Shown in pieces: positions 7,821 through 38,863 of a DNA stretch of 39,006 bases; position 1 is the stretch's first letter; each line of letters starts with the position of its first letter. The stretch is from Gemmatimonadaceae bacterium. Lineage in GTDB: Bacteria > Gemmatimonadota > Gemmatimonadetes > Gemmatimonadales > Gemmatimonadaceae. A program made the translations under genes and the position numbers. The notes beneath the pieces are model-generated. The model was not told where the DNA came from. It saw only the letters and a list, made by a program, of their open reading frames with translations, and ran no database searches. The stretch spans positions 1-39,006 of the forward strand of contig DATLUQ010000057.1 of NCBI GenBank assembly GCA_035533015.1, read 5' to 3'.

Positions 7821-8426
7821 ATGGAAATCCGCGAACGAATTCTCGAAGCGGCCGCCCGCGTCTATGCCCTCCACGGCTATCGTGGCGCGACCACCAGGCT
7901 CATCGCCAACGAAGCCGGCGTCAATGAAGTCACCCTGTTCCGCACCTTCGGCTCGAAAGACTCCCTGTTCGAGGAACTGGCCCGCGATCAGGCAAATGCC
8001 ACGGTCGTCCCGGAACTTCCAGGCCACCCGGTAGATCCCGAGCGCGAACTCACCGAGTGGTGCCACGTCGTCCTCGACTCTCTGACGCGCGAGCGATCGT
8101 TTCTCCGTAAGTCGATGAGCGAGATGGAGGAACGTCCGCTGGCCGCCGAGGCCGCGTGCCGTGGGCCGCACTGCGCCGCTGAGGTGCTCGGGCGATACGT
8201 GGACGTGCTCACCACGTATGAGTTGGCGCAAACCGGCGGCGATACGGGCGCCGCGATCTCGATGCTGATGTCGTCGCTGTTCGGCGATGCGATGTGTCGC
8301 GAAATGATGCCCGGAGCGTTTCCCGAGCCGGCGGAAGACGCGCCGAACCGCTACGCGAAGTGTTTCCTGCGAGCTGCTGGCATGTCGCTTCGCGCGGCGC
8401 CGAAGTCGAAGGTCACGGCGGCCTGA
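7821..8426 (+). CDS. TetR/AcrR-family transcriptional repressor
   Basis: The 201-residue protein has the TetR N-terminal DNA-binding domain: RERILEAAARVYALHGYRGA followed by the helix-turn-helix TTRLIANEAGVNEVTLFRTF (residues 24-43) and the conserved FGSKDSLF. The C-terminal half, which would bind a ligand and form the dimer, is helical and has no recognisable ligand signature. It ends 35 bases before the tolC-like gene on the same strand and very likely governs the tripartite efflux operon, releasing its operator when a toxic compound binds. The start is the only ATG that gives the full domain. Confidence 0.92.
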   Translation: MEIRERILEAAARVYALHGYRGATTRLIANEAGVNEVTLFRTFGSKDSLFEELARDQANATVVPELPGHPVDPERELTEWCHVVLDSLTRERSFLRKSMSEMEERPLAAEAACRGPHCAAEVLGRYVDVLTTYELAQTGGDTGAAISMLMSSLFGDAMCREMMPGAFPEPAEDAPNRYAKCFLRAAGMSLRAAPKSKVTAA

Positions 8427-8461
8427 CGCCGCGGCCCGATCACCTTTCAACACTCCAAGAC

Positions 8462-9994
8462 ATGCAATCCATCACAGCCAAGAGCGTGCGCGCCGCAGTT
8501 CTGTTTGGCGGCCTCGTGCTCGGTGCGATCCCGGCGCTCGCGCAGCGCGCGGCCGGCGGCGTACGCCCCGTATCGCTGGAAGACGCCATCCAGTTGGCGG
8601 AGCAGCGCAGCACGACGGTCCGCATGGCTCGGGCCGGTGTGACGCGCGCCGAGGGCCAGTTCGACCAGGCACGCAGTCAATTCCTGCCGCAGGTCGGCGC
8701 GTCGCTCGGATACACGCGGACGCTGCGCTCACAGTTTTCGGGGTTCAGCTTCGGGAGCACGTCGTCGGACTCGACCGGGTCGAACGGCACGAGCAGCCCC
8801 GCGTCGAACTTGCAGAGCGTGGGCTTCGGCGCGGAGAACGAATACGTGATCGGGCTGCAGGTATCGCAGAACGTCTTCACGTGGGGCCGCCTCACCGGCC
8901 AGCGCACGGCGGCGGTGGCCGGGCAACGGGTGGCTGATCTCGAACTCGGCTCGCAACGGGCCCAGCTGGCGCTCGACGTGACGCAGGCCTACTACGACGC
9001 CGTGCTCGCGCAGCAGTTGCTGGTGATCTCGGATTCCACGCTGGCCCAGACGGACGAATTGTTGCGGCAGACGACCGTGGCGCGCCGTGTGGGCAACGCG
9101 TCGGACTTCGACCTGCTCAAGGCGCAGGTGACGCGTGACAACCAGCGGCCGCAGGTGCTGCAGGCAGAGACCAACCTCGAGGTGGCGCTGCTCAATCTCA
9201 AACGCCTGCTCGAACTGCCGCTGGATGATTCGGTCGTGCTGACGACGCCGATCGAGAACGCGCCGATGCCGGGCCTTGCCGGTATCGCGACGACGAACGC
9301 GCCGGACACGAGCTCCCTGCAACGCGCCGCCGTGCGGGAAGCGCAACAGAACGTCCGGGCCCAAGAGGGTTTGCTGCAAGTCGCCCGGGCCGAACGGTAT
9401 CCGGCTCTGTCACTCACGTCGGGCTATCAACGGCTGTTCTTCCCGGCGAACACGTTTCCTGCGTGGAGCAACTTCCGCGAGAACTGGACGGTGGGGCTGA
9501 GCGCGCAGGTGTCACTGTTCAACGGTGGGGGCACGCACGGCGACGAGCTGGTGGCGCAGGCCAACGTGCATCAGGCCCAGGCCCAATTGGATCAGACGCG
9601 GCAGTACGCAGCGGTCGATGCGCGGGTAGCGATGCGCCAGTTGGCGCAGGCCGACGCGTCGTGGGAGGCGAGCGCGGGTACGTCGGAACAGGCGCGCCGG
9701 GCCTACGCGATCGACCAGGTCCGGTACCAGCAAGGTCTGTCCACGCAGACCGATCTGGCGCAGTCGCGGCTGCTGCTCCAGCAGGCCGAGGCCAACCGCG
9801 CGCAGGCGGCGCGGGACCTCGCCGTGGCACGTGTGCGCGTGGCGCTGTTGCGCGATCTGCCGCTGTCGGGGGGCCCGGGCGGCGCATCGAGCGGGAGTTC
9901 GACCACGAGCACGGGCGCCAGTGCATCGAGAATGCCGGCCAGCACTCCGGCCGTGACGGGCACGTCGGGCCAAATCGGGGGCAATACTCCATGA
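8462..9994 (+). CDS. TolC-family outer membrane efflux protein
   Basis: Outer membrane channel of a tripartite exporter, 510 residues. A signal peptide (residues 1-27, cleavage after ALA) is followed by two OEP repeats of long coiled helices rich in Gln/Ala/Arg (for example QLAEQRSTTVRMARAGV and the matching helix near residue 290). A Ser/Gly/Thr-rich insertion at about 92-113 lies where the first extracellular loop would be. The last 35 residues are a Gly/Ser/Thr-rich tail, longer than in E. coli TolC. The chosen ATG directly precedes the signal peptide. Its TGA overlaps the ATG of the adaptor gene (ATGA), so the two are translationally coupled. Confidence 0.92.
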   Translation: MQSITAKSVRAAVLFGGLVLGAIPALAQRAAGGVRPVSLEDAIQLAEQRSTTVRMARAGVTRAEGQFDQARSQFLPQVGASLGYTRTLRSQFSGFSFGSTSSDSTGSNGTSSPASNLQSVGFGAENEYVIGLQVSQNVFTWGRLTGQRTAAVAGQRVADLELGSQRAQLALDVTQAYYDAVLAQQLLVISDSTLAQTDELLRQTTVARRVGNASDFDLLKAQVTRDNQRPQVLQAETNLEVALLNLKRLLELPLDDSVVLTTPIENAPMPGLAGIATTNAPDTSSLQRAAVREAQQNVRAQEGLLQVARAERYPALSLTSGYQRLFFPANTFPAWSNFRENWTVGLSAQVSLFNGGGTHGDELVAQANVHQAQAQLDQTRQYAAVDARVAMRQLAQADASWEASAGTSEQARRAYAIDQVRYQQGLSTQTDLAQSRLLLQQAEANRAQAARDLAVARVRVALLRDLPLSGGPGGASSGSSTTSTGASASRMPASTPAVTGTSGQIGGNTP

Positions 9995-11112
9995 ACGTGA
10001 AGGTGCAATCCACGCGGATCGCATTCCTCGCGCTGGCTGCGATGATGCTTGCTGGCGTGGCGGCGTGCCAGCGCGACGCGGGCAACGCGGAGCCGGCCGA
10101 TCCTGGCGTGACGATCGGGCCCGAGAACATCACGGTCGTGGCGGTGCACAGGATCCAGACTGGCCCGGAGATTTCGGGTTCGCTCGAGCCGGATGAGGAG
10201 GCCACGGTGCGCGCGGAGGTGCAGGCCGCGGTACTCGAGACGTATGCGGAGCCTGGGCAGCGCGTGACCAAGGGACAGGTGCTGGCCCGCCTCGACGACT
10301 CGGTGTTGCGCGAGCAGGCGCTGTCCGCCAAGTCAGCGGTGGGAACGGCGCAGAACGCGGCCGACATTGCGCAGCGGAACCTCCAGCGCAGCGAAGCACT
10401 GATCAACGTGGGAGCGATCGCCGATCGCGATCTCGAGGCGGCCCGCAACGCGGCGATGACGGCCCAGACGCAGCTCGACAACGCCACGGCCGTGTACGCC
10501 AACGCGCAGCAGATGCTCGAGAAGACCACGGTGCGCGCGCCGTTCGACGGTGTGGTGGCGGCCCGCGACGTGACCGGCGGCGATTTCGTGTCGCCGGGCG
10601 GTGCGATGTTCTCGGTGGTCAATCCCGCCACCATGCGGCTGGAAGCGTCGGTGCCGGCCAATGCCCTCGGCGACGTGAAGATCGGCATGCCGGTGGACTT
10701 CTCGGTGACCGGCTATCCCGGTCGCACGTTCACGGGGCACATCACGCGAGTGAATCCCACGGCCGATCCCACCACCCGGCAGGTGTCGCTGCTGGCGCGC
10801 ATCCCGAATGTGGGGCGCTCGCTGGTGGGCGGCCTGTTCGCCGACGGGCGCGTGGCGAGCGAGACGCACGACGCGCCAGTGGTGCCCATCTCGGCGGTGG
10901 ACGAACACGGCGTGCGGCCGTCGGTGATGGCGCTGCGACAGGGGAAGGTGACGCCGGTGGCCGTCGAACTCGGCATTCGCGACGACGTCGCCGAGACGGT
11001 GGAGATCCGGAGCGGGCTGGCAGCGGGCGACACGATCCTCGTCGGTGCCGCGCGCGGCATCTCACCGGGCACGCCGGTGCGGGTGAGCGCACCAAACGAC
11101 GCCAAGCCGTAG
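9991..11112 (+). CDS. RND efflux periplasmic adaptor (membrane fusion lipoprotein)
   Basis: HlyD/AcrA-type adaptor of 373 residues that links the RND pump to the TolC-like channel. The N-terminus carries a lipobox, LAGVAAC, with Cys26 as the predicted lipidated residue, so it is anchored to the inner membrane facing the periplasm. Visible in order are a lipoyl half-motif (VLETYAEPGQRVTKGQVLARLD), an Ala/Gln-rich coiled-coil hairpin, the second lipoyl half (TTVRAPFDGVVAARDV), a beta-barrel domain (SVTGYPGRTFTGHI) and a membrane-proximal domain. It overlaps the preceding gene by 4 bases and is followed 10 bases later by the pump gene. Confidence 0.93.
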   Translation: MNVKVQSTRIAFLALAAMMLAGVAACQRDAGNAEPADPGVTIGPENITVVAVHRIQTGPEISGSLEPDEEATVRAEVQAAVLETYAEPGQRVTKGQVLARLDDSVLREQALSAKSAVGTAQNAADIAQRNLQRSEALINVGAIADRDLEAARNAAMTAQTQLDNATAVYANAQQMLEKTTVRAPFDGVVAARDVTGGDFVSPGGAMFSVVNPATMRLEASVPANALGDVKIGMPVDFSVTGYPGRTFTGHITRVNPTADPTTRQVSLLARIPNVGRSLVGGLFADGRVASETHDAPVVPISAVDEHGVRPSVMALRQGKVTPVAVELGIRDDVAETVEIRSGLAAGDTILVGAARGISPGTPVRVSAPNDAKP

Positions 11113-11122
11113 CGAGCGGATC

Positions 11123-14100
11123 ATGGTCATTTCCGATTTTGCGATCAAGCGCCCGTTGATCACCGTGGTCACGATGCTGGCGCTGACCGTCTTCGGGCTG
11201 TTCGCGCTCTACAAGCTGAAGACCGACGAGTACCCCGATGTGGCGCCGCCGTACGTCACGGTGGGCATTCCCTATCCCGGCGCGTCGCCCGACGTGGTGG
11301 AGAAGCAGATCCTCAAGCCGGTGGAGGATCAACTCTCGTCGATCGCCGACGTCAAGCAGATCACGGGGCAGGCGTACGACGGCTATGCGAACGTGCTGAT
11401 CGAGTTCTACTTCGACAAGGACCTCAACGTCGCCACGCAGGAGGCCCGCGACGCGATCTCGTCGATCCGCTCCGATCTACCCGACGAGATGAAGGAACCG
11501 GTGATCAAGAAGTTCAACGACACCGATCGTCCCATCGTGTCGCTGGCGCTGTCGTCGAGCGTATTGTCCCCGGCCGAACTGACCCGACTCGCCGATCCGG
11601 ACATCACGCGGCAACTGCGCGCGATTCCAGGTGTGGCGGACGTGGAAATCTTCGGGAACGTCGATCGGGAGCTGACCGTCGAGGTCCATCCCACGGCCCT
11701 GCAGGCCGCTGGGGTGAGCGTGGCGCAGGTTGTCACGGCGCTCCAGAACCAGAATCTCGCCGCGCCTGTTGGGCGCGTGATCGGCTCGCTGGATGAGCGG
11801 TCGATCCGCCTCAAAGGCCGTCTCGAGACCCCCCACGATTTCACCCAGCTCATCGTCGCCGAACGCAACAACCGGGTGATCCGCCTGGGCGACGTGGCCA
11901 CGGTCAGCGACGGTACGGCCGAGGCGCGCACGATGGCGCTGTACGACGCGCGCGAGGCCGTGGGCATCGACGTCAAGAAGGCCAAGGGCTACAGCACCAC
12001 CGACGTCAGCGATCAGATAAGGGCCCGCGTGGCCCAGATCCAGAAGACGCTTCCGGAGGGCACGACGATGGACGTCGTGAAGGACTCCGGCGTGCGCGTT
12101 ACCGCGGCCGTGCGCAACGTCGAGGAGGCGCTGCTCATCGGGGCGATGCTCACCGTCCTGGTGGTGTTCCTGTTCCTGAATTCATGGCGGTCCACGGTCA
12201 TCACCGGACTCGCCCTGCCGGTGTCGGTGCTGGCCTCGTTCATCGCCGTGTGGGTGATGGGGTTCAAACTCGAGACGATGTCGCTGCTCGGCCTGTCGCT
12301 GGCGATCGGCATCCTGATCGACGACGCCATCGTGGTGCGCGAGAACATCGTGCGCCACGTGGAGATGGGAAAGGATCACTACACGGCGGCCCACGACGGC
12401 ACCGACGAGATCGGCCTGGCCGTGGCGGCGACGACGTTCTCGATCCTCGCCGTGTTCGTACCGATCGGGTTCATGCCGGGGATCGGCGGCCAGTGGTTCA
12501 AACCGTTCGCGCTGACCATTGCCTGCGCGGTGGCAGTGTCGCTGTTCGTCTCGTTCTCTCTCGATCCGATGCTGTCGGCCTACTGGGCCGACCCGCATAA
12601 GCCCGACCATGAACGGGCGTGGATCTCGCGGCAACTGAACCGCTTCAACCGCTGGTTCAACCGCCAGGCCGCGAACTACAAGAACGTGGTGGCGTGGGCG
12701 CTGGACCACCGAGCGGCCATGGTGACGATAGCCGTCGGGACGTTCTTCGCGGCGTTCCTGCTGCCCAGCCGCGGGGTGAGCGGACTGGGCATGGCCGTGA
12801 TCGGGCTGGCCGCGGCCGTGTACGCCATGAGCAGCAAGCGGCTACCCGGGGCGGCGCGGGCCCTGATCGGCGTGGCCGGCGTCGCGGCCTTCGTGATTCT
12901 GCCGCGGTTGGTGCCGCCGATGGGCGCCGTCGGTGTGGGCTTCATGCCCGAGGACGACCGTGCCGAGTTGACCGTGCACATCGAGACGCCACCGGGATCG
13001 AATCTCGAGTACACGCGGCTCAAGGCTGAAGAGACGGCCCGGTTCATCCGCGCGCACAAGGACCTGGTGCTGCACACGTACTCGACGCTCGGTACGCAGG
13101 CTACGGGCGAGGTGGACCAGGGCGACATCTACGTGAAGATGGTGCCGCGCGAGCAACGGTCGGTGAGCGTCAACGAATTCGCGGCGATGTTGCGCGACGA
13201 AACCAGACACGTGGCGGGCATCACGTTGTCGGTGTTCACCGACGACTTCAGCGGCGGTCGCAAACAATTACAGTTGCAGATCCGCGGCGACAACCTGACG
13301 GCGATCAATGCCACGGCCGACACCGTGGAGCGCATCGTGAAGCAGGTGCCGGGCGCGGTGGACGTCGGGCTGTCCACCAAGGGGGAGAAGCCGGAGCTGA
13401 ACATCGAACTCAACCGCGGCATCGCCGGCGCGCTGGGGATCACCGTGGGCCAGATCGCGCAATCGCTGCGGCCCGCGTTCGCCGGGCTCAAGGCGGGCGA
13501 CTGGATCGATCCGAGCGGGGACCCACGCGACGTCGAGGTGCGGCTGGCGCCGGACGCCCGGCGCCGGGCGTCCGACCTCCGCCAACTCCCGTTGGTGGTG
13601 ACCGGTCCCGACGGCATGCCGACCACACTGCCGCTCGGGCAGGTGGCAACGATCAAGGACAGTGTGGGGCCGGCGATCATCGACCATCTCGATCGCGAAC
13701 GCGTGGTGAACGTCGAACTCAACACGTCGGGGCGCGCCTCCGGCGACGTCACCGCGGATATCGAGGCGCGGCTGGCCACGCTGCGGTTGCCGCCCGGGGT
13801 GCGGCTGTCGTACGGCGGCGACGCGCAGAACCAGAGCGAGGTCTTCGGCCAGATCTTCTCGGCGCTCGGCATCGCCGTATTGCTGATGTACCTCATCCTC
13901 GTCGTGCAGTTCGGGTCGTTCCTCGATCCGTTGGCGATCATGATCTCGCTGCCGTTGTCGTTGATCGGCGTGATGTTGGCGCTGGCGTTCACCGGCAACA
14001 CCATCAACATCATGTCGTTGATCGGCGTGATCCTGCTCATGGGCATCGTGGCCAAGAACGCCATCCTCCTCATCGACTTTGCGAAATGGTCGCGTGAGGA

Positions 14101-14434
14101 GCAGGGGACGCCGTTGCGCGACGCGCTCATTGAAGCGGGGGCGATCCGCCTGCGGCCCATCCTGATGACGACGTTCGCCCTGATCGCCGGCATGATTCCG
14201 GTGGCGATGGGGCGAGGCGAAGGCGCGCAATTCCGATCACCGCTGGGCGTCGCCGTGATCGGCGGGGTGATCACGTCCACGCTGCTCACCCTGCTCGTGA
14301 TTCCGACGTTCTATGAGATCATGGACGGGTGGCGCTCCAGGTTGGCCCGGAAGTTCGGGCTCAGGCCGCCCCACACGGCGGAGCACGCCGTACCGGTGGG
14401 CACGCCGGGGAAACCCGCGATGGGCGACGATTAG
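11123..14434 (+). CDS. RND-family multidrug efflux pump (HAE1/AcrB type)
   Basis: Inner-membrane proton-driven pump of 1,103 residues. It begins [15 protein letters not shown], the standard HAE1 N-terminus. Proton-relay residues are present: Asp400-Asp401 in [13 protein letters not shown] and Lys978 in [11 protein letters not shown], matching AcrB Asp407, Asp408 and Lys940. Two large periplasmic loops flank the membrane halves as expected. It is about 55 residues longer than AcrB. The excess sits at TM7 (residues 531-607), where one membrane helix is replaced by three hydrophobic segments before the conserved [11 protein letters not shown]. The cognate adaptor and channel are immediately upstream; the substrate cannot be told from sequence. 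Confidence 0.95.
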
Positions 14435-20496: not shown

Positions 20497-21738
20497 ATGG
20501 CTTCTCCCTCCCTGACATCCACGCGCGTGGGTTTCGCCGCCCTGCGCGCGAATCCGCTCCGAACGTTCCTGTCGACGCTCGGTGTGATCATGGGCGTGGC
20601 GGCGCTGGTCTCCGTGTTGTCGCTGGGCGACGGTATGGAACACTTCGCGCGTACACAGATCGACCGAACCTCCGACCTGCAATTCATCCAGGTGAATCCG
20701 GTGACCACGCGTGAGGTGGATGGGCAGTCGTTTCCCCGCCCCGACGTGCGCCTGTTCACCGTGGACGACGTCGCCGGTCTCCAGTCGCGGTTAGCAGTGC
20801 CGGCGCAGGTGACGGTGGTCGTGCGGGCAGGGGCGCTCGTGTCGCGCCCACCCGGTCGTCCGCGGGGAGTCGTCGTGTTCGGCGCGACGCCGGCCCTGGC
20901 CGCGATGCGCGGGCTCCATGCGCGGGCCGGCCGGTTCTTCGACGAGGCCGAGACGCGCGCCGGCGCACCGGTCGTGGTGCTGTCGAACGCACTGGCCGCA
21001 GCGCTCGCTGCACCGGCGGCGGGGGTGTCGCTCGTCGATTCCACGGTGCTCGTGCAGGGCCAACCGCGGCGGGTGGTGGGAGTGCTGGCACCGGGCCAGG
21101 ACTCCACCGCGCTGCAGGCATTCGTGCCCATCACGGGAGCGGTCGCGGCGATGCTTCCATCGACGACGGTGCGGGCGCCGATGTTGCTCATCCACGTGGA
21201 TAGTGTAAACCAGGTGGACTCGGCGCGGGCGGTGGTGGAACGGTGGCTGGCTGCCGGCGACCCGGCGTGGAAGGACCGGGTGCGCGTGGTCACCAACGAA
21301 TACCGGCTGGGCCAGGTGCAGCAGGGTCTGCTGCTGTTCAAGCTGCTGATGGGTGCGCTCACCGGGATCTCCCTGCTCGTGGGCGGCATCGGCATCATGA
21401 ACGTGCTGCTGGCGAGCGTGGCCGAGCGGACGCGGGAGATCGGCATCCGGCGCGCGGCCGGCGCGCGCCGGCGGGAGATCATGACCCAGTTCCTCGCCGA
21501 GTCGGTGGCCATCACCAGCACCGGTGCCGTGGTCGGTGCGGTGTTCGGGGTGGCGGCGGCGTACACGGTTACGGCCGTCATGCGCGCGCGCACACGGGCG
21601 ACCGTGTACGCGGGGCTCTCGTGGAGCACGCTGGCCGTGGCCGCGCTCGCCGCGCTCGTCGTAGGCATCGGATTCGGACTGTATCCGGCCCTCAAGGCGG
21701 CCCGGCTGTCACCCATCGACGCCATTCGGCACGAATAG
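20497..21738 (+). CDS. MacB-type ABC transporter permease, orphan
   Basis: A 413-residue inner-membrane permease of the MacB/FtsX family, which uses mechanotransmission to drive lipoprotein, peptide or drug traffic across the periplasm. The architecture is complete: TM1 near residues 20-42 (FLSTLGVIMGVAALVSVLSL), a periplasmic MacB-type core domain of about 45-280, then the FtsX block with three helices. The cytoplasmic coupling motif ERTREIGIRRAAGARRREIMTQF is present. No ATPase or adaptor gene is next to it, so it must borrow a nucleotide-binding subunit from elsewhere. It starts 37 bases after the cyclase gene. The substrate is unknown. Confidence 0.85.
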   Translation: MASPSLTSTRVGFAALRANPLRTFLSTLGVIMGVAALVSVLSLGDGMEHFARTQIDRTSDLQFIQVNPVTTREVDGQSFPRPDVRLFTVDDVAGLQSRLAVPAQVTVVVRAGALVSRPPGRPRGVVVFGATPALAAMRGLHARAGRFFDEAETRAGAPVVVLSNALAAALAAPAAGVSLVDSTVLVQGQPRRVVGVLAPGQDSTALQAFVPITGAVAAMLPSTTVRAPMLLIHVDSVNQVDSARAVVERWLAAGDPAWKDRVRVVTNEYRLGQVQQGLLLFKLLMGALTGISLLVGGIGIMNVLLASVAERTREIGIRRAAGARRREIMTQFLAESVAITSTGAVVGAVFGVAAAYTVTAVMRARTRATVYAGLSWSTLAVAALAALVVGIGFGLYPALKAARLSPIDAIRHE

Positions 21739-29340: not shown

Positions 29341-30648
29341 TCAACACGGGAGTATCAGCCGTGCCTCGCACCCGTGCCCATCCGTCCGGTCGACGAGCGT
29401 CAACGATCCACCGTGCGCCTCGGCGATCTGCTGTGACAGCACCAGCCCGATCCCGGTTCCGCCGGGCTTCGTGGTGAAGAACGGCACGAACAGATTGGTC
29501 GTATGCGGCAGTCCCGGACCGTCGTCCTGCACCACGACTTCGAAGTGGGCGCGCTCGCGGGACCAGGTGACCCGCACGCCCCCGCTGGTCTCGAGGGCGG
29601 CGTCCACCGCGTTGCGCACGAGATTGATGAGCAGTTGATCGAGCTGATCGCCGTCGGCGAGCAGCGTGACCGGCGGACCCGGGATGATCTCCACAGACAG
29701 TCGCGTCTCGAGCTGCACGATGCGATTGACCCAGGCGCCCACGCTGATCGGGGCCAGCCGTGGGGCCGGGAGTTTGGCCAGCTTGGTGTACGAGGCGAGG
29801 AAACGGGTGAGCGCCTCCGACCGGTTGGCGATCACCCCCATCCCGCGCTGCATGTCCTCCCGCGCCGCGGCGTCTGGCGCTCGCCGTCGCAGCATCTCCT
29901 GGAATTGCTCGGCGAGGGACTTGATGGGGGTGATCGAGTTGTTGATCTCGTGGCCCAGTACGCGCACCAGCCGCTGCCAGGCCTTGCGCTCTTCCTCGCG
30001 CAGCGCGCGGCTCACGTCAGCGAGCACCACGAATTGGTGGGGGCGGCCGCCCTGGCGGAAGGCGCCGCGCCGTACCTCCCACCGGCCGCGTTGAGCGCCG
30101 AGCGCCAGTTCCACGACACGCGGTGCGTCGCCGCGCAGACACTCGCCCAGTCCGAGTTCCTCGGCCCGCCGCCCGAGCAACCGTTCTGGGGGTTGGCCGA
30201 GCAGCCGTTCGCCGCTCGCGTTCACCACGCGGAGGGCGCCGGCATCGTCGAACGCGAACACGGCTACGTCGATCTCGGCCATCACGCGTTGGAGCAGGGC
30301 GGTGGCTTCGAGCGCTCCCAGGCGGCGCTCGCGCAGCTCATCCATCAGCGAATTCAACTCGAGCATGGCGAGACCCAGGGCGTCGCCCGTGCTGGCCCGC
30401 CGGCCACGCAGGGAGTAGTCCTGCTCGCGAATGGCGGCCAGCATGTTGGACAGCGTCTGGAGGGGACGCACGACGCGTTCGCGGAGCGTGAACGCGAGCG
30501 AGAGCCAGAGCGCTACGAGCAGGACGGTGAGCGACCACTGGGTGCGCGGCTCGAACCCGCCCGTCCAGAGCAGCGTGAGCGCGATGGCCAGCGCCGGGAG
30601 CGGCGAGGCCAGCGCGAGGATCGTGACCTGGCGTTCGTGCGACGCCAT
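29341..30648 (-). CDS. NtrY-like sensor histidine kinase with PAS domain
   Basis: Membrane histidine kinase of 435 residues that should phosphorylate the regulator encoded just upstream. Two helices (about 8-29 and 37-54) are separated by only a few residues, so there is almost no periplasmic sensor. A HAMP-like linker follows (RERVVRPLQTLSNMLAAIREQDY), then a PAS domain (118-215). The phospho-acceptor is His233 in RVLGHEINNSITPIKS, the E-[IL]-N-N-pattern of NtrB/NtrY kinases. The ATP site is complete: NLVRNAVDAA, DDGPGLP, FFTTKPGGTGIGL. It begins 9 bases after the regulator stop codon. The signal is probably sensed in or near the membrane or in the cytoplasm by PAS. Confidence 0.93.
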   Translation of the reverse strand: MASHERQVTILALASPLPALAIALTLLWTGGFEPRTQWSLTVLLVALWLSLAFTLRERVVRPLQTLSNMLAAIREQDYSLRGRRASTGDALGLAMLELNSLMDELRERRLGALEATALLQRVMAEIDVAVFAFDDAGALRVVNASGERLLGQPPERLLGRRAEELGLGECLRGDAPRVVELALGAQRGRWEVRRGAFRQGGRPHQFVVLADVSRALREEERKAWQRLVRVLGHEINNSITPIKSLAEQFQEMLRRRAPDAAAREDMQRGMGVIANRSEALTRFLASYTKLAKLPAPRLAPISVGAWVNRIVQLETRLSVEIIPGPPVTLLADGDQLDQLLINLVRNAVDAALETSGGVRVTWSRERAHFEVVVQDDGPGLPHTTNLFVPFFTTKPGGTGIGLVLSQQIAEAHGGSLTLVDRTDGHGCEARLILPC

Positions 30649-30657
30649 TAGTAAATA

Positions 30658-32022
30658 CTAGAGATTGTGGCGCTGCAGACGCCGGTAGAGCGCGCTGCGC
30701 GAGAGGCCGAGTGCCTTGGCGGCGAGGCTGACGTTGCCTTCGTACCGCGCCATCGCCTTGCCGATCAGCACCCGCTCCACGTCCTCGAGGCTCATCTCTT
30801 CGAGAGCGGGGGCCGCGGTGCCGACCGCCTGCAGCGCGAGGTCGCCCTCCCGCAGCGCATCGTGCTGAGCGAGCAGCGTGGCCCGCTCCACGGCGTGCGC
30901 CAGTTCCCGCACGTTGCCCGGCCAGCCGTAGCGGAGCAGCGCCTGCATGGCCTCGGGACTGAACGCCGATACCGGACGCCGGTAATGGGCCGAGAATTGG
31001 CGCAGGAAATGCGTCGCGAGGAGCGGGATGTCGTCCCGGCGCTCGCGCAGCGGCGGAAGGTGAAGCTCCACCGTATTGAGTCGGAAGAACAGATCCTCGC
31101 GGAACCGGCCCGCCGCCACCTCGGTGCGGAGGTCGGCGTTCGTGGCGGCGAGAATGCGCACGTCCACGCGGCGCGTCTTGGACGAGCCGACGCGCTCCAT
31201 CTGTCCCGTCTGCAGCACGCGCAGCAGCTTGGCCTGTTGGGCGAGCGAGAGATTGGCGATCTCGTCCAGGAACAGCGTGCCGCCGTCGGCCAATTCGAAC
31301 CGCCCCATGCGGTCGGCCTTGGCGTCGGTGAACGAGCCCTTCACGTGCCCGAACATCTCGCTCTCGAACACGCCTTCGGAGAGGCCGCCCAAATTGACCG
31401 TGACCATGGCCCGCACGCGGCGTGGCGATGCGGCGTGCAGCCAGGCGGCCACCACCTCCTTGCCCGTGCCGTGTTCGCCGGTGATCAGGGCGCCGGCGTC
31501 GGAAGGGCCGATGCGCTCCATGAGCCGCAGCACCGGCTGCATGGCCGCCGATTGGGCGATGAGTTCTGGCGCACCGTCGGGGCGGAGCGCGCGATTCTCG
31601 CTCTCCAGCCGCTGGCTTGTGCGGATGGCGCGGCTCAATTCCACCTGGGTGGCGAGTACGTGGAGTAGCCGTGCGTTGTTCCACGGCTTCTCGATGTAGT
31701 CGCGGGCTCCTCGGCGCAGTGCCTCCACCGCGCCCTCAATGCTTCCCCAAGCCGTCATCACGATCACCGGCAGCGTGGCGTCCAGCGCCTGAAGGCGTGT
31801 GAGCAGGTCGAGCCCTTCCACACCCCCGGTCGTATCGCGCGTGTAGTTCATGTCCATGAGCACGGCGTCGAAGTCCTGCGTGGTCACGCCGGCGATCAGG
31901 GCCCCCGGAGACACAGCGGTGTCGACCTCATACTCTTCGCCGCGCAGCAGCAGCCGCAGGGCTTCGAGGACGTCGCGGTCATCGTCGGCGACGAGGATTC
32001 TGGCGGCAGCGGGCGCAGTCAT
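30658..32022 (-). CDS. Sigma-54-dependent NtrC-type response regulator
   Basis: Response regulator of 454 residues with receiver, AAA+ and Fis-type DNA-binding domains. The receiver has the acidic cluster at 13-15, phospho-acceptor Asp57 (VLMDMNY), Thr90 and Lys112. An insertion after Asp57 (TRDTTGG) is characteristic of one NtrX-like subgroup. The AAA+ domain has Walker A GEHGTGKE (182-189) and Walker B GGTLFLDE (247-254). The sigma-54 contact loop is GSFTDA (229-234) instead of the usual GAFTGA. The C-terminus (NVSLAAKALGLSRSALYRRLQ) is a Fis helix-turn-helix. It is expected to remodel sigma-54 polymerase, and the good -24/-12 promoter at 37355-37371 is the obvious target. Confidence 0.94.
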   Translation of the reverse strand: MTAPAAARILVADDDRDVLEALRLLLRGEEYEVDTAVSPGALIAGVTTQDFDAVLMDMNYTRDTTGGVEGLDLLTRLQALDATLPVIVMTAWGSIEGAVEALRRGARDYIEKPWNNARLLHVLATQVELSRAIRTSQRLESENRALRPDGAPELIAQSAAMQPVLRLMERIGPSDAGALITGEHGTGKEVVAAWLHAASPRRVRAMVTVNLGGLSEGVFESEMFGHVKGSFTDAKADRMGRFELADGGTLFLDEIANLSLAQQAKLLRVLQTGQMERVGSSKTRRVDVRILAATNADLRTEVAAGRFREDLFFRLNTVELHLPPLRERRDDIPLLATHFLRQFSAHYRRPVSAFSPEAMQALLRYGWPGNVRELAHAVERATLLAQHDALREGDLALQAVGTAAPALEEMSLEDVERVLIGKAMARYEGNVSLAAKALGLSRSALYRRLQRHNL

Positions 32023-32125
32023 GGGGGAAACGTTACGCGAAAGGCGCCGCGCGGGCCACGTCGGCTCCTGCGACCGTGGCGGCAGCTCGGATGGGCGGGG
32101 CTTCAACGACTTTGACGCGGATTCG

Positions 32126-32186: not shown

Positions 32187-34568
32187 TCACTCGTACCGCA
32201 GGGCGACCATCGGATCCACGCGCGTCGCCCGGCGGGCGGGGAGATAGCACGCGGCGAGCGCCACGGCGATGAGCGTGGCTGACACGCCGGCGAACGTGGG
32301 CAGATCGTGCGGCGTCACGCCGAACAGCATCCCCGCCAGGAATCGCGACAGCGCGAGCGAGAGCGCGATGCCGCAGACCGTGCCCAGCAGTGCGAGCCCC
32401 ATCCCCTCGCGCAACACGAACCCCAACACCCGGCGCCGGTCGGCGCCGAGTGCCATGCGAATGCCCAGCTCCTGTGTGCGCTGCGCGACCTGATAGGCCA
32501 TCACGCCGTACAGCCCCACCGCCGCGAGCACCAGCGCGAGGGCAGCGAACGCGTCGATCACGACCGAGTTGAAACGCCGCGGGGCGACGAACTGATCGAG
32601 CTGGTCCTGCATCGGTGCGACGGAAGCGCCGAGCTGGAGCGGATCGTATCCGGCGATCATGTGCCGGATCGCGGCCAGCAGGGGAGCGGCGTTGCCCGAG
32701 TACCGCACGGCGACCACGTAGGGCGACGTCGATGCCTGCGTGATCGGTGCGTAGATCTGTGGGAGGCGGGGCTGGGTGGAGCCGGGCAGTTGCAGATTCT
32801 CGGCGATCCCGACGATCGTCGCATTACCCCGCCGGTCGCCGATGAACACTGTCTTCCCGATCGCTGGCTTCCCCGAATAGAGCGCCTCGGCGGCGGCCTC
32901 GCTCACCACCGCCACGCGCTCGCTCCCCGCCTGATCGCGTGCATCAATGAGCCGGCCGGCCACGAGCTTCGACCCGAACGCCTTCATGAAACCGGCGCTC
33001 ACGTGCTCGAGCGCGATGGGCGGGCCAGTGGTCTGCGTGCCCGGACGAAAGCTGCGGATCGTCGCGTGGTACCCGTCGATCCCGGCAGCGTCGGCGTACC
33101 CGACAGACGTGACGCCGGGCAGTGCCGCGATCTCCTCAGCCGTGCGGTCGAAGAACCGCGTCGCCAGCGACTCCGTCGGAAACGCCTTGCTGGTCAGGTA
33201 CAACTCGAGTTCGAGCGCATGCGCCGGCTGGAACCCAACATCCACCGACACCGCCCGCTCGAAGCTGCGCGTGAGCAGGCCGGCGCCCGTGAGCACGACC
33301 AGAGCGATGGTCAGCTCCGTGACCACCAGCGCCCGGCGGATACGCCGCTGCGTCGTGGTTCCGGTGCTCCGCACGCCGCCCTCCTTGAGCGCACGGTACG
33401 TATTCCTTCCCGTTGTCGCAACGGCCGGAATCAAACCGAACGCCACTCCCGTCAGAATCGACAGCGCGGCGGTGAATGCCAGCACCGTGCCGTTCACGTG
33501 AATGTCGCCCACGCGCGACATGCTGGCTGGGCCGATCCGCAGGAAGAAGTCCAGGGTCCACAGCGGAACGAGCAAGCCGAGCGCGCCGCCTGCGACGCTC
33601 ACGACGACGCTCTCCCAGAGGAGCTGGCGGGCCAGCCGCCAGCGCGAGGCGCCGAGCGCCACCCGCACCGCGAACTCGCGCTGCCGCGCCGCACCGCGCG
33701 CGAGCAGCAGGTTCGCCACGTTGGCGCAGGCAATGAGCAACAGGAACGCCACCGCGCCGAGCAGCATGAGCAGGGCGGGGCGCATCTCGCCGTACAGGCG
33801 GTCGTGCAGCGTCATCAGCACCGGCGAGCGGGGACTCTCCAGCGGCGCCCCCTTGGCGACTGGCTCGACCGGCATGTGCGCGAGAATGCCTGCGACCTCC
33901 GATCGTGCGGCGGCGATCGAGACGCCCGCCCTGAGCCGGCCCACGATCTGGACGTAGTACGTCGAGCCATTGTCCGGCGTCGAGTCCATCTGGATCGGCA
34001 CCCAGAACCACGCATTCCTCGGCGCCTGGAACCCGCGGGGCATGACGCCGAGCACTGCCACCGGGCGGTCGTCGAGTCGGATCGTGCGGCCGACGATGGA
34101 CGGGTCGGCGCCGAGCCGCCGCCACAGCGAATCCGAAAGCACGACCACATCCGGCCCGCCGTCCACGTCCTCGTCTTGGCGGAATGTGCGGCCCAAAGCC
34201 GGCCGCGCCTCGAACACCGAGAAGAACGACGCCGCAACGCTCTGCCCGCCCATGCGATCGGGCGACTCGCCGAGGCTGACCACGCGGCTCGTCCCGCCGT
34301 ACATCGCCAGCGCAGCGACTGCGGAAGCGTGGCGCCAGGCATAGTAGTCGCGCACCCGGGCCACCTGCTGATCGTGGCCGTCCTGGCGCTCGGAGATCGA
34401 CACGATCCGCCCGGCATCCGGATACGACAGCGGGCGGAGCAGCACCGCGTTCACGATCGTGAACAGCGTGGTCGTCGCGCCGATGCTGAGGGCCAAGGTG
34501 ACGATCGCCACCGCCGCGAACAGCGGACGTTTGCGGAGCGAGCGAAGCGCGAGGCGCAGGTCGTTCAT
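32187..34568 (-). CDS. MacB/FtsX-type ABC permease with duplicated core (ADOP type)
   Basis: Inner-membrane permease of 793 residues made of two tandem MacB-core plus FtsX units, the ADOP arrangement frequent in Acidobacteriota and Gemmatimonadota. TM1 is at about 15-45 (FAAVAIVTLALSIGATTTLF). The first FtsX block is near 260-340 with REFAVRVALGASRWRLARQLL. A central pair of helices follows, then a second periplasmic core domain, and the terminal FtsX block has TQELGIRMALGADRRRVLGFVL and ends VDPMVALRYE. The two REFAVR/ELGIR coupling motifs fit two ATPase contacts. The ribosome site AAGGAG is 8 bases before the ATG. It is encoded 40 bases after the second ATPase gene. Likely substrates are lipids, peptides or toxic small molecules. 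Confidence 0.9.
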   Translation of the reverse strand: MNDLRLALRSLRKRPLFAAVAIVTLALSIGATTTLFTIVNAVLLRPLSYPDAGRIVSISERQDGHDQQVARVRDYYAWRHASAVAALAMYGGTSRVVSLGESPDRMGGQSVAASFFSVFEARPALGRTFRQDEDVDGGPDVVVLSDSLWRRLGADPSIVGRTIRLDDRPVAVLGVMPRGFQAPRNAWFWVPIQMDSTPDNGSTYYVQIVGRLRAGVSIAAARSEVAGILAHMPVEPVAKGAPLESPRSPVLMTLHDRLYGEMRPALLMLLGAVAFLLLIACANVANLLLARGAARQREFAVRVALGASRWRLARQLLWESVVVSVAGGALGLLVPLWTLDFFLRIGPASMSRVGDIHVNGTVLAFTAALSILTGVAFGLIPAVATTGRNTYRALKEGGVRSTGTTTQRRIRRALVVTELTIALVVLTGAGLLTRSFERAVSVDVGFQPAHALELELYLTSKAFPTESLATRFFDRTAEEIAALPGVTSVGYADAAGIDGYHATIRSFRPGTQTTGPPIALEHVSAGFMKAFGSKLVAGRLIDARDQAGSERVAVVSEAAAEALYSGKPAIGKTVFIGDRRGNATIVGIAENLQLPGSTQPRLPQIYAPITQASTSPYVVAVRYSGNAAPLLAAIRHMIAGYDPLQLGASVAPMQDQLDQFVAPRRFNSVVIDAFAALALVLAAVGLYGVMAYQVAQRTQELGIRMALGADRRRVLGFVLREGMGLALLGTVCGIALSLALSRFLAGMLFGVTPHDLPTFAGVSATLIAVALAACYLPARRATRVDPMVALRYE

Positions 34569-34608: not shown

Positions 34609-35268
34609 TCACACGATCCACCCGTCCTTCAGATTGATGATCCGGTTGCCGTACCCCGCGTTCACCTCTGAATGCGTCACCTGGATGATGGTCGTGCCGC
34701 CCTTGTTGAGCCGGGCAAACAGTTCCATGATCTCGGCACCCTGGGCCGAGTGGAGATTGCCCGTGGGCTCGTCGGCGAGCAGGATGGACGGCTTGTGGAT
34801 CACCGACCGCGCCACCGCCACGAGCTGCTGCTGGCCGCCCGAGAGCTGTCGCGGATAGAGGTCCTTCTTGGCCACCATCCCGAACCGGTCGAGCGTATCG
34901 GCCACGATCGCCTGCCGCTCCGACTTCTTGATGTCGCGGTACGACAGCGGAATGTCGAGATTCTCGGCCACCGTGAGATCGTCCAGCAGGTGGTACTGCT
35001 GGAACACGAATCCCACGTACTGTTTGTGCAGCGCCACCCGCTTCCTGGTGTCCAGCTTGTGCACGGCGTGGTCGAACAGGTAGTACTCGCCGCTCCACGC
35101 ACCGTCGAGCATGCCGAGAATGGCGAGCAGGGTGGACTTCCCGGCGCCCGACGGCCCCATGATGGTCACGAACTCGCCGGCGTTGATCTCGGCCGTGATC
35201 TGGCGCAGCACGAACGACTGCCCGCCGGCGATGGGATAGCTCTTCTCGACGTTACGCAGGGAGATCAT
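34609..35268 (-). CDS. ABC ATPase of MacB/LolD type with altered D- and H-loops
   Basis: Nucleotide-binding subunit, 219 residues. Walker A GPSGAGKST (38-46), Q-loop Gln90, signature LSGGQ (142-146), Walker B ILLADEP (Glu167) and switch His199 are all present. Some positions normally fixed in MacB/LolD ATPases differ. The D-loop reads GNLHSAQG, with His173 where Asp is expected. The signature is followed by QQLVAVARS instead of QQRVAVARA. The residue after the switch His is Ser instead of Asp. It starts 13 bases after the paralogous ATPase gene. I infer that it is the degenerate half of a heterodimeric pair serving the two-unit permease. Confidence 0.9.
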   Translation of the reverse strand: MISLRNVEKSYPIAGGQSFVLRQITAEINAGEFVTIMGPSGAGKSTLLAILGMLDGAWSGEYYLFDHAVHKLDTRKRVALHKQYVGFVFQQYHLLDDLTVAENLDIPLSYRDIKKSERQAIVADTLDRFGMVAKKDLYPRQLSGGQQQLVAVARSVIHKPSILLADEPTGNLHSAQGAEIMELFARLNKGGTTIIQVTHSEVNAGYGNRIINLKDGWIV

Positions 35269-35281
35269 GAACCGGACCGCA

Positions 35282-35992
35282 TCAGGCGTGCGCCGGCGCG
35301 GTCGGCTGCTCGTCCACCACGCGGCCGTCGAACAGATTGACGGAGCGATCGGCGTGCGCCGCGTAGCGGGGATCGTGCGTCACCATGCAGATCGTGGCGC
35401 CGTTGCGGTGCAGCTCGCGGAGCAGATCCATGACCTGCTCGCCGTTGGCCGAGTCGAGGTTCCCGGTCGGCTCGTCGGCGAGGAGGATGGCCGGGTCGCC
35501 GGCCACGGCCCGCGCTACGGCCACGCGTTGCTGCTGGCCGCCGGAGAGCTGGGCCGGAAAGTGCTTCACGCGGTGCGACATGCCCACGCGATCGAGCGCC
35601 CCGTGCACGCGCTCCTTGCGCTCGGCGGCGCTCATGCCGCGGTAGGTGAGCGGGAGCTCCACATTCTCATATACCGTGAGGTCGCCGATCAGGTTGAATG
35701 CCTGGAAGATGAACCCGATCTGGCGGTTGCGCACCCGGGCCCGGTCGCCGGCGTCGAGGCCCGCCACGGGGCGGCCGTCCAGCAGGTACTCGCCGTCGGA
35801 GGGCGTGTCGAGCAACCCGAGGATCGAGAGCAACGTGGTCTTTCCGCATCCCGAGGGCCCGGAGATGGCGATGTACTCGCCTTGCTTGATCTCGAGGTGC
35901 ACGTCGGCCAGCGCGTGTGTCTCCACCTCGTCGGTGTAGAACACTTTCTTGATACCCTGGAGCTGGATGAGCGCCTGCCCATTCGTTGCCAT
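35282..35992 (-). CDS. ABC ATPase of MacB/LolD type, canonical
   Basis: Nucleotide-binding subunit, 236 residues, with every motif in consensus form: Walker A GPSGCGKTT (45-53), Q-loop Gln97 (FQAFNLIGDLTVYENVELPL is the MacB/LolD-type coupling segment), signature LSGGQQQRVAVARAV (149-163), Walker B ILLADEP (Glu174), D-loop GNLDSANG (Asp180) and switch His206 in VTHDPR. A GGAGAGG ribosome site precedes the ATG. It lies 48 bases after the adaptor gene and should power the permease together with the divergent paralogue next to it. Confidence 0.94.
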   Translation of the reverse strand: MATNGQALIQLQGIKKVFYTDEVETHALADVHLEIKQGEYIAISGPSGCGKTTLLSILGLLDTPSDGEYLLDGRPVAGLDAGDRARVRNRQIGFIFQAFNLIGDLTVYENVELPLTYRGMSAAERKERVHGALDRVGMSHRVKHFPAQLSGGQQQRVAVARAVAGDPAILLADEPTGNLDSANGEQVMDLLRELHRNGATICMVTHDPRYAAHADRSVNLFDGRVVDEQPTAPAHA

Positions 35993-36040: not shown

Positions 36041-37309
36041 TTACTGCCCCACGCGGCATCGCGGGCTGCATTTCACCCGGTCCACCGCATCCCACTGCGA
36101 CATGTCCGACAGGATCACCGTATCGCCCACGGCGAGCCCGCGCTTGATCTCCACCGTGCTCACCGAACTCCGGCCCAGTTCCACCTGAACCCGCGAGGCG
36201 TAGCTGCCGCCGTCGGTCACCTTGAACAGCCCCACCGTGCCCGAGCCCGCGCCATACCCCGGCCGGCCCGTAAACAACACATTGGTCAACTTCTCGATCG
36301 TAATGGTTCCGTCCACGCTCAGATCGGGCACGGCACCCGCCGGCAGCGCGCCGTCCAGCGCGACGTCCACCGTCACGGTACCATTCTGCGACGTCGGATC
36401 CTTTCGCGCTACGTGCCCGGGAATCACCCCGTTATGGGTATCGACCTGCGCCTTCTGTCCTACGGCCACATCCTTGGCCTGGGTTTCGGGAATCCGCAAC
36501 ACCGCCTTGAGCTTGCCAGGCTGTACCACCTTGGCCACCAGTTGCCCCTCGGTCACCCACTGGCCGAGCTCCAGTGTCTGGTCCTCCTGGAGCACGCCGG
36601 TGTCGCCGGCCCGCAGCATGAGCCCCTTGCGCTTGTTCTCCTGCGCCTCGGCCATCGTCCGGAGGAACTGCACCTGCGAACGCTGGGCGGCAATCTGCGA
36701 GTCGGCCTGCTGCCGCATGATCTGCAGCCGCTGCTGCTCGATCTTCATCCGACTCGCAAGCTCGTCCACCGACTGGCGGTTCTGCGCGACATCGTTGGCG
36801 GCGGCCAGGTGCCGCACGGCCAGCGAGTCCGTGGATCGCGCCGTGTTCGCCGCGGTGAGGTACTGCGTCTTGAGGCTGGCGATGGTGTTCTCTTCCGTGA
36901 GTTGGGCGCCGATCAGATCGCTCTGCATCTGGATCAGTTGCGACCGCGCCTGCGCCCACGCCTGCTGCGCCGAGAGTGCGGCGATCTCCACGTCGGGATT
37001 CGACATTTCGATAAGGACGGTGTTCGAATCCACCCGCTCACCAGGCTCGACGACGAGTCGGTCGATGCGCCCCGTAGCCGCCGCCGTGACCTGCCGGATG
37101 TGCTCGGGCACGAGATTGCCGGGGCCGCGCACCTCGAGCACCATGTCGCCCCGGCGCACGGTATCGGTCCACAAGGTGCCGCCGTCCACCGTCGGCGCCG
37201 CGGGCTTGAGACGCGAGAGCGCCACGGTGATCACGATGACCGCCACGACGCCGGCTCCATACGCCACGTACTTCTTCGTGTTCTTCTGCTTCGGGCGGGC
37301 AATGTCCAC
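36041..37309 (-). CDS. HlyD/MacA-like periplasmic adaptor of the ABC exporter
   Basis: Membrane-anchored adaptor of 422 residues. An N-terminal helix (about 15-32, YVAYGAGVVAVIVITVAL) anchors it. Then come a lipoyl half (GRIDRLVVEPGERVDSNTVLIEM), a long Gln/Ala/Arg-rich coiled coil (about 108-230), the second lipoyl half, a beta barrel and a membrane-proximal domain. The coiled coil is longer than in the RND adaptor, as expected for MacA-type proteins contacting a TolC-like channel. The start is GTG with GAGGA 5-6 bases upstream; the sigma-54 promoter puts the mRNA start about 36 bases before it. The extreme C-terminus has two cysteines (KCSPRCRVGQ). No TolC partner is encoded in this block, so it may share the one at 8462. 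Confidence 0.9.
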   Translation of the reverse strand: MDIARPKQKNTKKYVAYGAGVVAVIVITVALSRLKPAAPTVDGGTLWTDTVRRGDMVLEVRGPGNLVPEHIRQVTAAATGRIDRLVVEPGERVDSNTVLIEMSNPDVEIAALSAQQAWAQARSQLIQMQSDLIGAQLTEENTIASLKTQYLTAANTARSTDSLAVRHLAAANDVAQNRQSVDELASRMKIEQQRLQIMRQQADSQIAAQRSQVQFLRTMAEAQENKRKGLMLRAGDTGVLQEDQTLELGQWVTEGQLVAKVVQPGKLKAVLRIPETQAKDVAVGQKAQVDTHNGVIPGHVARKDPTSQNGTVTVDVALDGALPAGAVPDLSVDGTITIEKLTNVLFTGRPGYGAGSGTVGLFKVTDGGSYASRVQVELGRSSVSTVEIKRGLAVGDTVILSDMSQWDAVDRVKCSPRCRVGQ

Positions 37310-37354: not shown

Positions 37355-37371
37355 TGGCAAGGCCCATGCCA
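37355..37371 (-). promoter_or_regulatory. Sigma-54 (-24/-12) promoter of the ABC export block
   Basis: Read on the minus strand, CTGGCATGGGCCTTGCC matches the sigma-54 consensus YTGGCACGrNNNTTGCW at all but two fixed positions. GG and GC are separated by exactly ten bases. Transcription would start near 37345, 36 bases before the adaptor GTG at 37309. A sigma-54 activator is encoded at the far end of the same block, which makes a chance match much less likely. Confidence 0.78.
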
Positions 37372-37401
37372 GATCGCATACGAGCCAAGTGCTTTGGTGC
37401 T

Positions 37402-37437
37402 GGATGGTTAGACCCGCGGCGGGGCCGGATGGTTTGA
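37402..37437 (-). repeat. Tandem pair GGATGGTTWGA upstream of the sigma-54 promoter
   Basis: GGATGGTTAGA (37402-37412) and GGATGGTTTGA (37427-37437) on the plus strand are 10 of 11 identical with a 25-base period, at about -57 to -92 from the inferred start. They could be sites for a second activator or for a DNA-bending protein between enhancer and promoter. Confidence 0.45.
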
Positions 37438-37452
37438 ACGGCTTGTGCGGAT

Positions 37453-37471
37453 GTGGGACTGTGCGTCCCAC
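37453..37471. promoter_or_regulatory. Perfect inverted repeat, probable enhancer (UAS) for the NtrC-type regulator
   Basis: GTGGGAC-TGTGC-GTCCCAC is a 19-base perfect inverted repeat with 7-base arms at about -108 to -126 from the inferred sigma-54 start. This is the distance at which NtrC-family dimers normally bind. Function inferred from symmetry and location. Confidence 0.58.
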
Positions 37472-37513
37472 TTCCGGACACCGGTGAGCACCGCCTCTGC
37501 GTGGACTACGAGT

Positions 37514-37556: not shown

Positions 37557-38189
37557 TCAGTGGAAGATCACGCCGCCGGGACGGACTACCGGAAACCGCG
37601 ATCCACCCATGCCGCCGGGCATCGGGATGTACACACCGGGAAACCGGCCGCGGCCGCCATGCGGTTCGCAGTTGTCGCCGCCCACTTCTCCACCGCGAAT
37701 CACGGCGCCCAGGATCGGGCCGAAGCCTCCCCATCCCGATCCAGCTCGCCCTTGGTTCCCGGCGCCAGCGCCGAATCCGGGTTCGGTGGGCGCCGAACCT
37801 GGGCGCGGCGCGGTGGCCACGGGATCCTGATTCGGAATCGGCGCCGGCGCCGCGGCCACGGTCTGCACCTGCGGAACGGTCTGGTTGGCCGCAACCTGCG
37901 GAATGCGAGAGGCCTTGAGATCCGGCGCGTTCGACGCCAGCGCCTTGGGGCCGCGTGCCTTCACGAGATGCGCGGATTGCCGCGGCGCGCTCTCGGGTTG
38001 CGTTTCGAGCGCGTCGAAGTTGGCCGGGTTGACCTGCGGCGTAGCCAGGTTCATGGTCGTCGTGGACGCGAGCTTCAAATCACGCTGCAGGTCCACGTCG
38101 TTGGCCGAGACGGCGCGGCTGTTGTGTCCACACGCCGCAGCGGCGATGGCGATGGGGACCGCAACGACGATCAATGAACGGTTTCGCAC
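37557..38189 (-). CDS. Gly/Pro-rich predicted lipoprotein, unknown function
   Basis: A 210-residue protein with a clear lipoprotein signal, RNRSLIVVAVPIAIAAAACG (Cys20). The mature N-terminal half is polar and rich in Asn, Gln, Ala and Pro. The C-terminal half is Gly/Pro-rich and ends in VVRPGGVIFH after a short segment with one cysteine (GDNCEPHGG). No known family is apparent; low complexity suggests an extended, surface-facing tether. GTG 38189 is chosen because GGGAGG lies four bases before it; ATG 38204 would add five residues but has no ribosome site. It is the first of the same-strand series leading into the sigma-54-controlled export genes, 247 bases from the adaptor start. Confidence 0.68.
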   Translation of the reverse strand: MRNRSLIVVAVPIAIAAAACGHNSRAVSANDVDLQRDLKLASTTTMNLATPQVNPANFDALETQPESAPRQSAHLVKARGPKALASNAPDLKASRIPQVAANQTVPQVQTVAAAPAPIPNQDPVATAPRPGSAPTEPGFGAGAGNQGRAGSGWGGFGPILGAVIRGGEVGGDNCEPHGGRGRFPGVYIPMPGGMGGSRFPVVRPGGVIFH

Positions 38190-38205
38190 AGCGCCTCCCG
38201 GCATC

Positions 38206-38221
38206 CGGCCCGGCCGGGCCG
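38206..38221. repeat. 16-base perfect palindrome between divergent lipoprotein genes
   Basis: CGGCCCGGCCGGGCCG is fully self-complementary and sits 16 bases before the GTG start of the Gly/Pro-rich lipoprotein gene. It could be a protein-binding site or a leader hairpin. Such palindromes also arise by chance at this G+C content. Confidence 0.3.
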
Positions 38222-38329
38222 CAATGGTGTATACAATGATGCCCGCCGAAAGTTCTTGCAAGCGCGGCGCCGAATGTAAAGCTTCGATCGGTACGGTTAA
38301 GCACAAAATCTGCGAACTGATCATCTCCC

Positions 38330-38863
38330 ATGGCCCACTCTCTTGCTCTGCGAGCACTCCTCGTTGCCTGCGCACTCACCGCTGCCTGTACGAGTCCGCC
38401 TCCGGAGCGTTCGGGGCTGACCCATGCGCAGGCCGAGGCGATCCGGGAGCAGATCCGCGACGAGGTCACGAAAGCGTACGATCTCTCGCAGCCCGACGTT
38501 GCCGATCGCATGCTCAGTCTCTATCCCGATTCGGGACGTATCATATCCGCGTCGGGCGGGGAGATCCTGACCACGCGCGATTCGCTCGCCGCCGGCATCC
38601 ACTTCTTCTGGGACAACGTCGGCCGGTACATGCAGCATCCCACGTGGGTCTGGAAGCAGATGATCATCGACGTGCTCTCTCCGAACGCCGCGGTGATGAC
38701 GGCGACGTACCACATTCCTCATCACACACCGGCGGGGAAACCGCATGACATCGGGGGCGCGTGGACCGCGGTCTTCGTACGTGAAGGACCGAAGTGGGTG
38801 ATCATCCAGGAGCATCTGTCCGATCTTCCGGCGGCGGATACGACGAGGAATCAGCGGGAGTGA
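38330..38863 (+). CDS. SnoaL/NTF2-like lipoprotein
   Basis: A 177-residue protein with a lipobox, LTAAC (Cys20), and a mature domain that looks like the SnoaL/DUF4440 cone fold: a helical start (AEAIREQIRDEVTKAYDLSQPDVADRM), a strand with YPDSGRIISASG, a helix-loop (RDSLAAGIHFFWDNVGRY) and four antiparallel strands ending KWVIIQEHLSD. DUF4440-type domains bind small ligands or act in enzymes of varied kinds; there is no catalytic signature here. No good ribosome site precedes the ATG. It is divergent from the Gly/Pro-rich lipoprotein gene. Confidence 0.82.
   Translation: MAHSLALRALLVACALTAACTSPPPERSGLTHAQAEAIREQIRDEVTKAYDLSQPDVADRMLSLYPDSGRIISASGGEILTTRDSLAAGIHFFWDNVGRYMQHPTWVWKQMIIDVLSPNAAVMTATYHIPHHTPAGKPHDIGGAWTAVFVREGPKWVIIQEHLSDLPAADTTRNQRE

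Follow-up and report, generated by a model that had tools for sequence, protein, structure and literature searches.

Sigma-54 control through activators of the NtrC family, as in systems of the ZraSR, NtrBC, AtoSC and PrsKR type, combines a receiver-AAA+-Fis regulator and a linked kinase with a -24/-12 promoter and a dyad about 100 bp upstream of it. Among exporters, the closest described systems are MacAB-TolC, in which the ATPase is fused to a single MacB permease, and the acidobacterial duplicated orphan permeases (ADOP, TIGR03434), whose "orphan" describes a typical gene context that lies outside the curated TIGR03434 model. An older survey linked sigma-54, in general terms, to the exterior of the bacterial cell (PMC3162934). 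More recently, sigma-54 promoters were predicted for FtsX-like ABC permeases (COG0577) of gamma-Proteobacteria, Opitutia and Bacteroidia (PMC12316311, 2025); the text of that article mentions neither "Gemmatimonad-" nor "Acidobacteriota", and we saw in it no description of an activator, of an enhancer motif or of a link to tolC. We found nothing directly on point in the open-access literature on ADOP regulation or Gemmatimonas RpoN regulons, and no description there of an enhancer motif, an activator, a tolC link or such control in Gemmatimonadota or Acidobacteriota.

The locus described here lies in a 39,006-nt stretch of a Gemmatimonadaceae genome (hereafter, the window). It shares with NtrC-family systems the regulator architecture, the linked kinase, the -24/-12 promoter and the distant dyad, but differs from them in the sequence of the dyad, in its targets (ADOP exporters and tolC) and in a regulator that falls well under the cut-offs of the named equivalogs listed. 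With the permeases of PMC12316311 it has in common a sigma-54 promoter before an FtsX-type ABC permease. The mechanism of control is a standard one; the regulon and the enhancer motif appear undescribed.

As originally predicted, the export block opens with the adaptor gene, followed by two ATPase genes, the permease, the NtrC-type regulator and finally the kinase, with intergenic gaps of 48, 13, 40, 164 and 9 nt (Table 1). It resembles MacAB-TolC in its HlyD/MacA-like adaptor, in the MacB/FtsX fold of its permease and in having a TolC-family channel in its predicted regulon. In contrast to MacAB-TolC, its ATPase is separate and present in two different copies, its ADOP permease is internally duplicated, and its putative channel is encoded elsewhere: no outer-membrane factor gene is present in the block. 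Because the ATPases are separate and the permease is duplicated, we do not file the pump as MacAB, although it may work in a similar way. The permease passes the curated TIGR03434 cut-off (837.9 versus 622.3 bits); unlike the typical ADOP, it is linked to an adaptor and to two adjoining ATPase genes, and is under predicted sigma-54 control. The genome encodes 14 ADOP permeases above the cut-off, and only the block in the window has such dyad/sigma-54 control, so the regulon in this genome is narrow. Elsewhere in the window are a second, single MacB-type permease frame outside the block (20497-21738) and, on the plus strand, a complete RND efflux set of outer-membrane protein, adaptor and AcrB-type pump (8294-14434).

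Table 1. Positions of the genes and control elements of the export block within the window.
Feature	Position	Strand	Description or support
Periplasmic adaptor	36041..37309	-	HlyD/MacA-like; GTG start; one N-terminal membrane helix
ABC ATPase 1	35282..35992	-	MacB/LolD/DarD-like
ABC ATPase 2	34609..35268	-	about 45% identity to ATPase 1
Permease	32187..34568	-	ADOP-family duplicated MacB/FtsX permease; TIGR03434
Response regulator	30658..32022	-	NtrC family; 454 aa from ATG 32022
Histidine kinase	29341..30648	-	two close N-terminal helices, PAS, LGHEINN H-box, HATPase
Putative enhancer (UAS) dyad, TGTCCGGAAGTGGGACGCACAGTCCCACATCCGCACA	37444..37480	-	37 bp; conserved in 31/31 adaptor orthologs of regulator-bearing genomes
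Middle element, AA + TT about 20 nt apart	37385..37412	-	75 aligned sites
Sigma-54 -24/-12 element, TGGCATGGGCCTTGCC (GG-N10-GC)	37356..37371	-	motif, ortholog conservation and profile
Predicted transcript start	37345	-	inferred from the -12 position (12 nt past the -12 GC)

As expected of the NtrC family, the regulator joins a receiver to an AAA+ domain for sigma-54 interaction and an HTH domain of the Fis type. Its scores are well short of the cut-offs of all the named equivalogs listed, with ZraR coming closest (370 of 760). Its start is most likely the ATG at 32022 rather than the GTG at 32250, since orthologs align from there; this placement leaves the 164-nt gap after the permease stop. 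The sigma-54 contact loop, at the GAFTGA position, reads GSFTDA; of 63 loops from relatives, 61 have GAFTDA. Both GAFTDA and GSFTGA are among the loop variants expected to stay active, a list in which GSFTDA does not figure (PMC4641369). The helices of the kinase lie close together and it almost lacks a periplasmic loop, suggesting that its signal is perceived within the membrane or close to it.

The original prediction placed a sigma-54 promoter ahead of the adaptor. We found that the GG-N10-GC spacing (GG at 37370-37369, GC at 37358-37357, exactly 10 bases between) and the 46 bases from the element to the GTG hold, whereas the coordinates given for it, 37371-37355, are off by one base: the 17-mer CTGGCATGGGCCTTGCC, the 16-bp element plus a leading C, occupies 37372-37356 of the minus strand. 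The element has two mismatches to TGGCACGN4TTGCW. By itself, such a motif is weak evidence, uninformative in this high-GC genome: at up to 3 mismatches it is not enriched in the window (55 matches versus a shuffle mean of 64), nor is TGGCACGN4TTGC at up to 1 mismatch enriched genome-wide (59 matches versus 104 in the reversed control). Comparison with relatives gave a different picture. All three same-genus orthologs carry, in the same place, a better match to the consensus than the window copy does (TGGCACGGGCCTTGCC, TGGCACGCGCCTTGCC and TGGCACGGGCCTTGCT), of the form TGGCACG-N4-TTGCC or TTGCT and 58-63 nt upstream of the adaptor; the window copy, which reads CATG in place of their CACG, is the poorest match among the genus members. 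In addition, a profile trained on other genera only ranks the window site 2nd of 77,974 positions. This conservation and this rank place the site above chance, and illustrate how a weak promoter match from raw sequence can gain confirmation through comparison. In other genera, TTCC frequently takes the place of TTGC at the -12 element. Loss of the GG and GC in close relatives, or absence of rpoN from the genome, had been named as observations that would speak against the promoter; both dinucleotides are kept in the three relatives, and rpoN is present in one copy (PF04552, E 1.5e-63).

Upstream of this element we identified a dyad that had no counterpart in the original prediction. Read from 37480 to 37444, its layout is TGTCCGGAAG-TGGGA-CGCACAG-TCCCA-CATCCGCACA, with 14 of 16 arm positions paired, and in degenerate form the motif is TGTYCG-N4-TGGGA-N7-TCCCA-N4-CGNACA. 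Throughout the genus, precisely 109 nt separate the start of the dyad from the T of the -24 element; the centre of the dyad falls at about -117 from the predicted start, and it lies about 150 nt upstream of the adaptor. It is therefore positioned like an enhancer, about 100 bp upstream and with helical phasing, as is characteristic of sigma-54 promoters. Together with the conserved -24/-12 element and the presence of rpoN, the conservation of the dyad in relatives supports the prediction that a sigma-54 promoter heads the export block. Between dyad and promoter, a middle element has its AA at about -64 and its TT at about -43 from the predicted start. It could be a contact for the alpha subunit or for an architectural protein, and is fixed relative to the -24 element, with a displacement of one base in the window genus. 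Upstream of the enhancer, a same-strand gene (37557-38375) encodes a glycine-rich protein that is partially conserved in the genus (55-58%) and has no Pfam match.

Does the dyad belong with the regulator of the block? We defined regulator-bearing genomes as those with the regulator at 60% identity or more, and sampled 43 adaptor orthologs in 60 relatives, 31 in regulator-bearing genomes and 12 in others. A dyad with a promoter-like site precedes 31 of the 31 adaptors with the regulator in the genome, but only 2 of the 12 without it (Fisher p = 3.4e-8, kinship ignored). The two exceptions are a same-genus draft and another draft, both cut at contig ends. The dyads of the 31 orthologs have 1-6 mismatches of 22, whereas shuffled sequences have 6-10, mostly 8-9. 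At the other 10 adaptors without the regulator the dyad is absent; in the dyad-less cases inspected, a permease frame directly precedes the adaptor. From this co-occurrence, the block's own NtrC-type regulator is most likely what controls the block promoter. Gene linkage is no proof of a regulator's target, and the genome encodes seven strong sigma-54 activators, the linked regulator plus six others; one of the six might conceivably bind the dyad while the linked regulator acts elsewhere. We regard such binding by another activator as improbable: the dyad tracks the linked regulator in the counts above, and the pairing of the two is kept across phyla and gene orders, as described below.

We then searched 395 genomes of the phylum with the dyad pattern alone, using no gene information and a reversed-pattern control. 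This search returned about 96 strand matches in 61 genomes, versus 1 in the reversed control. In the non-redundant set of 84 sites, which includes sites from the relatives, 79 precede genes of the system: 52 adaptors, 18 ADOP permeases, 5 second ATPases, 3 TolC genes and 1 regulator, leaving 5 of 84 with no recognised system gene. A sigma-54-like site (up to 3 mismatches) lies on the gene side of 83 of the 84, versus 18 of 84, scattered, on the opposite side. The distance from dyad to sigma-54-like site is mainly 98-102 nt (18 sites) or 109-114 nt (58 sites), two classes that differ by about one helical turn, and the position of the middle element relative to -24 is constant in both. Alignment of the promoters gives YGGCACG-N3-CTTSC-N-TT, in which positions outside the query are conserved as well (C at +10 and T at both +16 and +17). 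These data bear on the opposite view of the promoter, in which the GG-N10-GC arose by chance, a housekeeping promoter drives the block and the dyad is the operator of a repressor. Near symmetry, which the dyad shows, can also be a property of operators, and the -24/-12 motif alone is not over-represented; however, spacing in two helical-turn classes across the phylum is unexpected for chance, and we found no sigma-70-like promoter on either strand between 29200 and 37600. We consider this reading very improbable.

The association also extends beyond the phylum. A composite profile applied to the surroundings of regulator orthologs (80 loci) detected 18 sites, and none in reversed controls; they include sites in Acidobacteriota (L242, L266, L274 and L277) and Omnitrophota (L262). 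In the Omnitrophota locus the gene order differs, with regulator and kinase followed by dyad, promoter and adaptor, and the association of dyad and regulator is therefore independent of one gene order. Judged by these comparisons, the window block is one piece of a putative export regulon that is widely conserved across the phylum.

In the genome of the window itself, a search for the dyad at up to 3 mismatches gave three matches: the window site, a second one on contig 1, and a third that is weak and looks like chance (reversed control, 0). The contig 1 site (13116-13240) pairs the dyad with the sigma-54 element CGGCATGGGCCTTGCT, again 109 nt apart, and is the only other dyad and promoter of this kind in the genome. 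It precedes, from about 13287, a tolC gene encoding an outer-membrane efflux protein (PF02321, OEP family, E 8e-42). Dyad and promoter precede tolC in 4 of 4 genus members: the combined fixed-spacing pattern gave 8 exact matches in 60 genomes, and each of the four accounts for two of them, one at its adaptor promoter and one at its tolC promoter. Outside the genus, 0 of 26 TolC relatives scanned have the dyad-promoter architecture, so the tolC link is a genus-level one; elsewhere in the phylum, one TolC-like gene (L344) does carry dyad and promoter. To the original prediction the cluster had appeared self-sufficient. This claim is not supported: the block lacks an outer-membrane factor, and the only other site in the genome heads the unlinked tolC. 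Rather, the block's regulator appears to bring in the outer-membrane channel in trans, and TolC may assemble with the pump of the block. Directly upstream of the tolC promoter, in this genome and in genus relatives (L109 and L118), lies a hybrid PAS-kinase-receiver gene (L096 1-1497).

On the strength of the conserved dyad, promoter and spacing, of the way in which these track the regulator, and of the tolC site, we think it very likely that the kinase, through the regulator and the dyad, directs sigma-54 activation of both the exporter block and the unlinked tolC. The membrane kinase would sense an envelope signal, probably an envelope-damaging or amphiphilic compound, and its signalling would yield the phosphorylated form of the regulator, its presumed partner. 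The regulator would then oligomerise on the dyad and, by DNA looping, open the sigma-54 polymerase at the -24/-12 element, switching on the adaptor, the two ATPases and the ADOP permease of a pump for some putative substrate. The same regulator would act on the identically spaced dyad and sigma-54 site upstream of tolC, so that exporter and outer-membrane channel would be induced together.

The original prediction went further and proposed a closed circuit, in which sigma-54 read-through also transcribes regulator and kinase, giving positive feedback in a complete cluster. All six genes are on the same strand with the gaps given above, and we found no convincing terminator in the 164 nt between permease and regulator. 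That gap could, however, house a separate promoter: a short TAACGT/TAAGCT motif, recurrent in the genus, lies a few bases upstream of the regulator ATG (32022-32045) and might be the -10 element of a leaderless basal promoter. Moreover, any sigma-54 circuit needs a basal supply of regulator to start, and completeness fails because the channel outside the cluster shares its enhancer and promoter. We therefore judge the closed circuit unlikely. A conserved sigma-54/enhancer site directly upstream of the regulator gene, sought in three genus members, was not found, so the regulator gene may be transcribed either by read-through or from a basal promoter of its own.

The exporters of this large family, from soil phyla that are hard to grow, are poorly understood; for them, the dyad provides a concrete, searchable motif for putative enhancers, together with a predicted activator. 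It predicts genes that act jointly, the distant tolC included, and hints at which ATPases may drive "orphan" permeases. Lone ADOP permeases with dyad and promoter, and with no ATPase in the fetched flanks, occur for example at L337, L338, L339, L340, L366 and L369, and some genomes, G195 and G321 among them, combine a dyad-bearing core locus with a lone permease that carries a dyad of its own. We tentatively suggest, as a possibility rather than an expectation, that lone ADOP permeases borrow the core ATPases, interchangeable permeases plugging into a common energising and periplasmic core, and, with the same reserve, that one activator and one enhancer motif unite the adaptor/ATPase core, unlinked ADOP permeases and TolC. 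In a genus of the same class (g74; G261, G282, G295 and G367), about 4 distinct dyad sites per genome (L331, L332, L333, L334 and L362-L370) lie before adaptor and ATPase genes and before several ADOP permease genes, which amounts to an enlarged form of the regulon. Finally, one site (L375; G018 C4, about 506444) has a dyad and a close sigma-54-like site at 98 nt before a gene unmatched by the system queries; a frame at this site (L119 1-1713, minus strand) matches DUF5916/CBM9.
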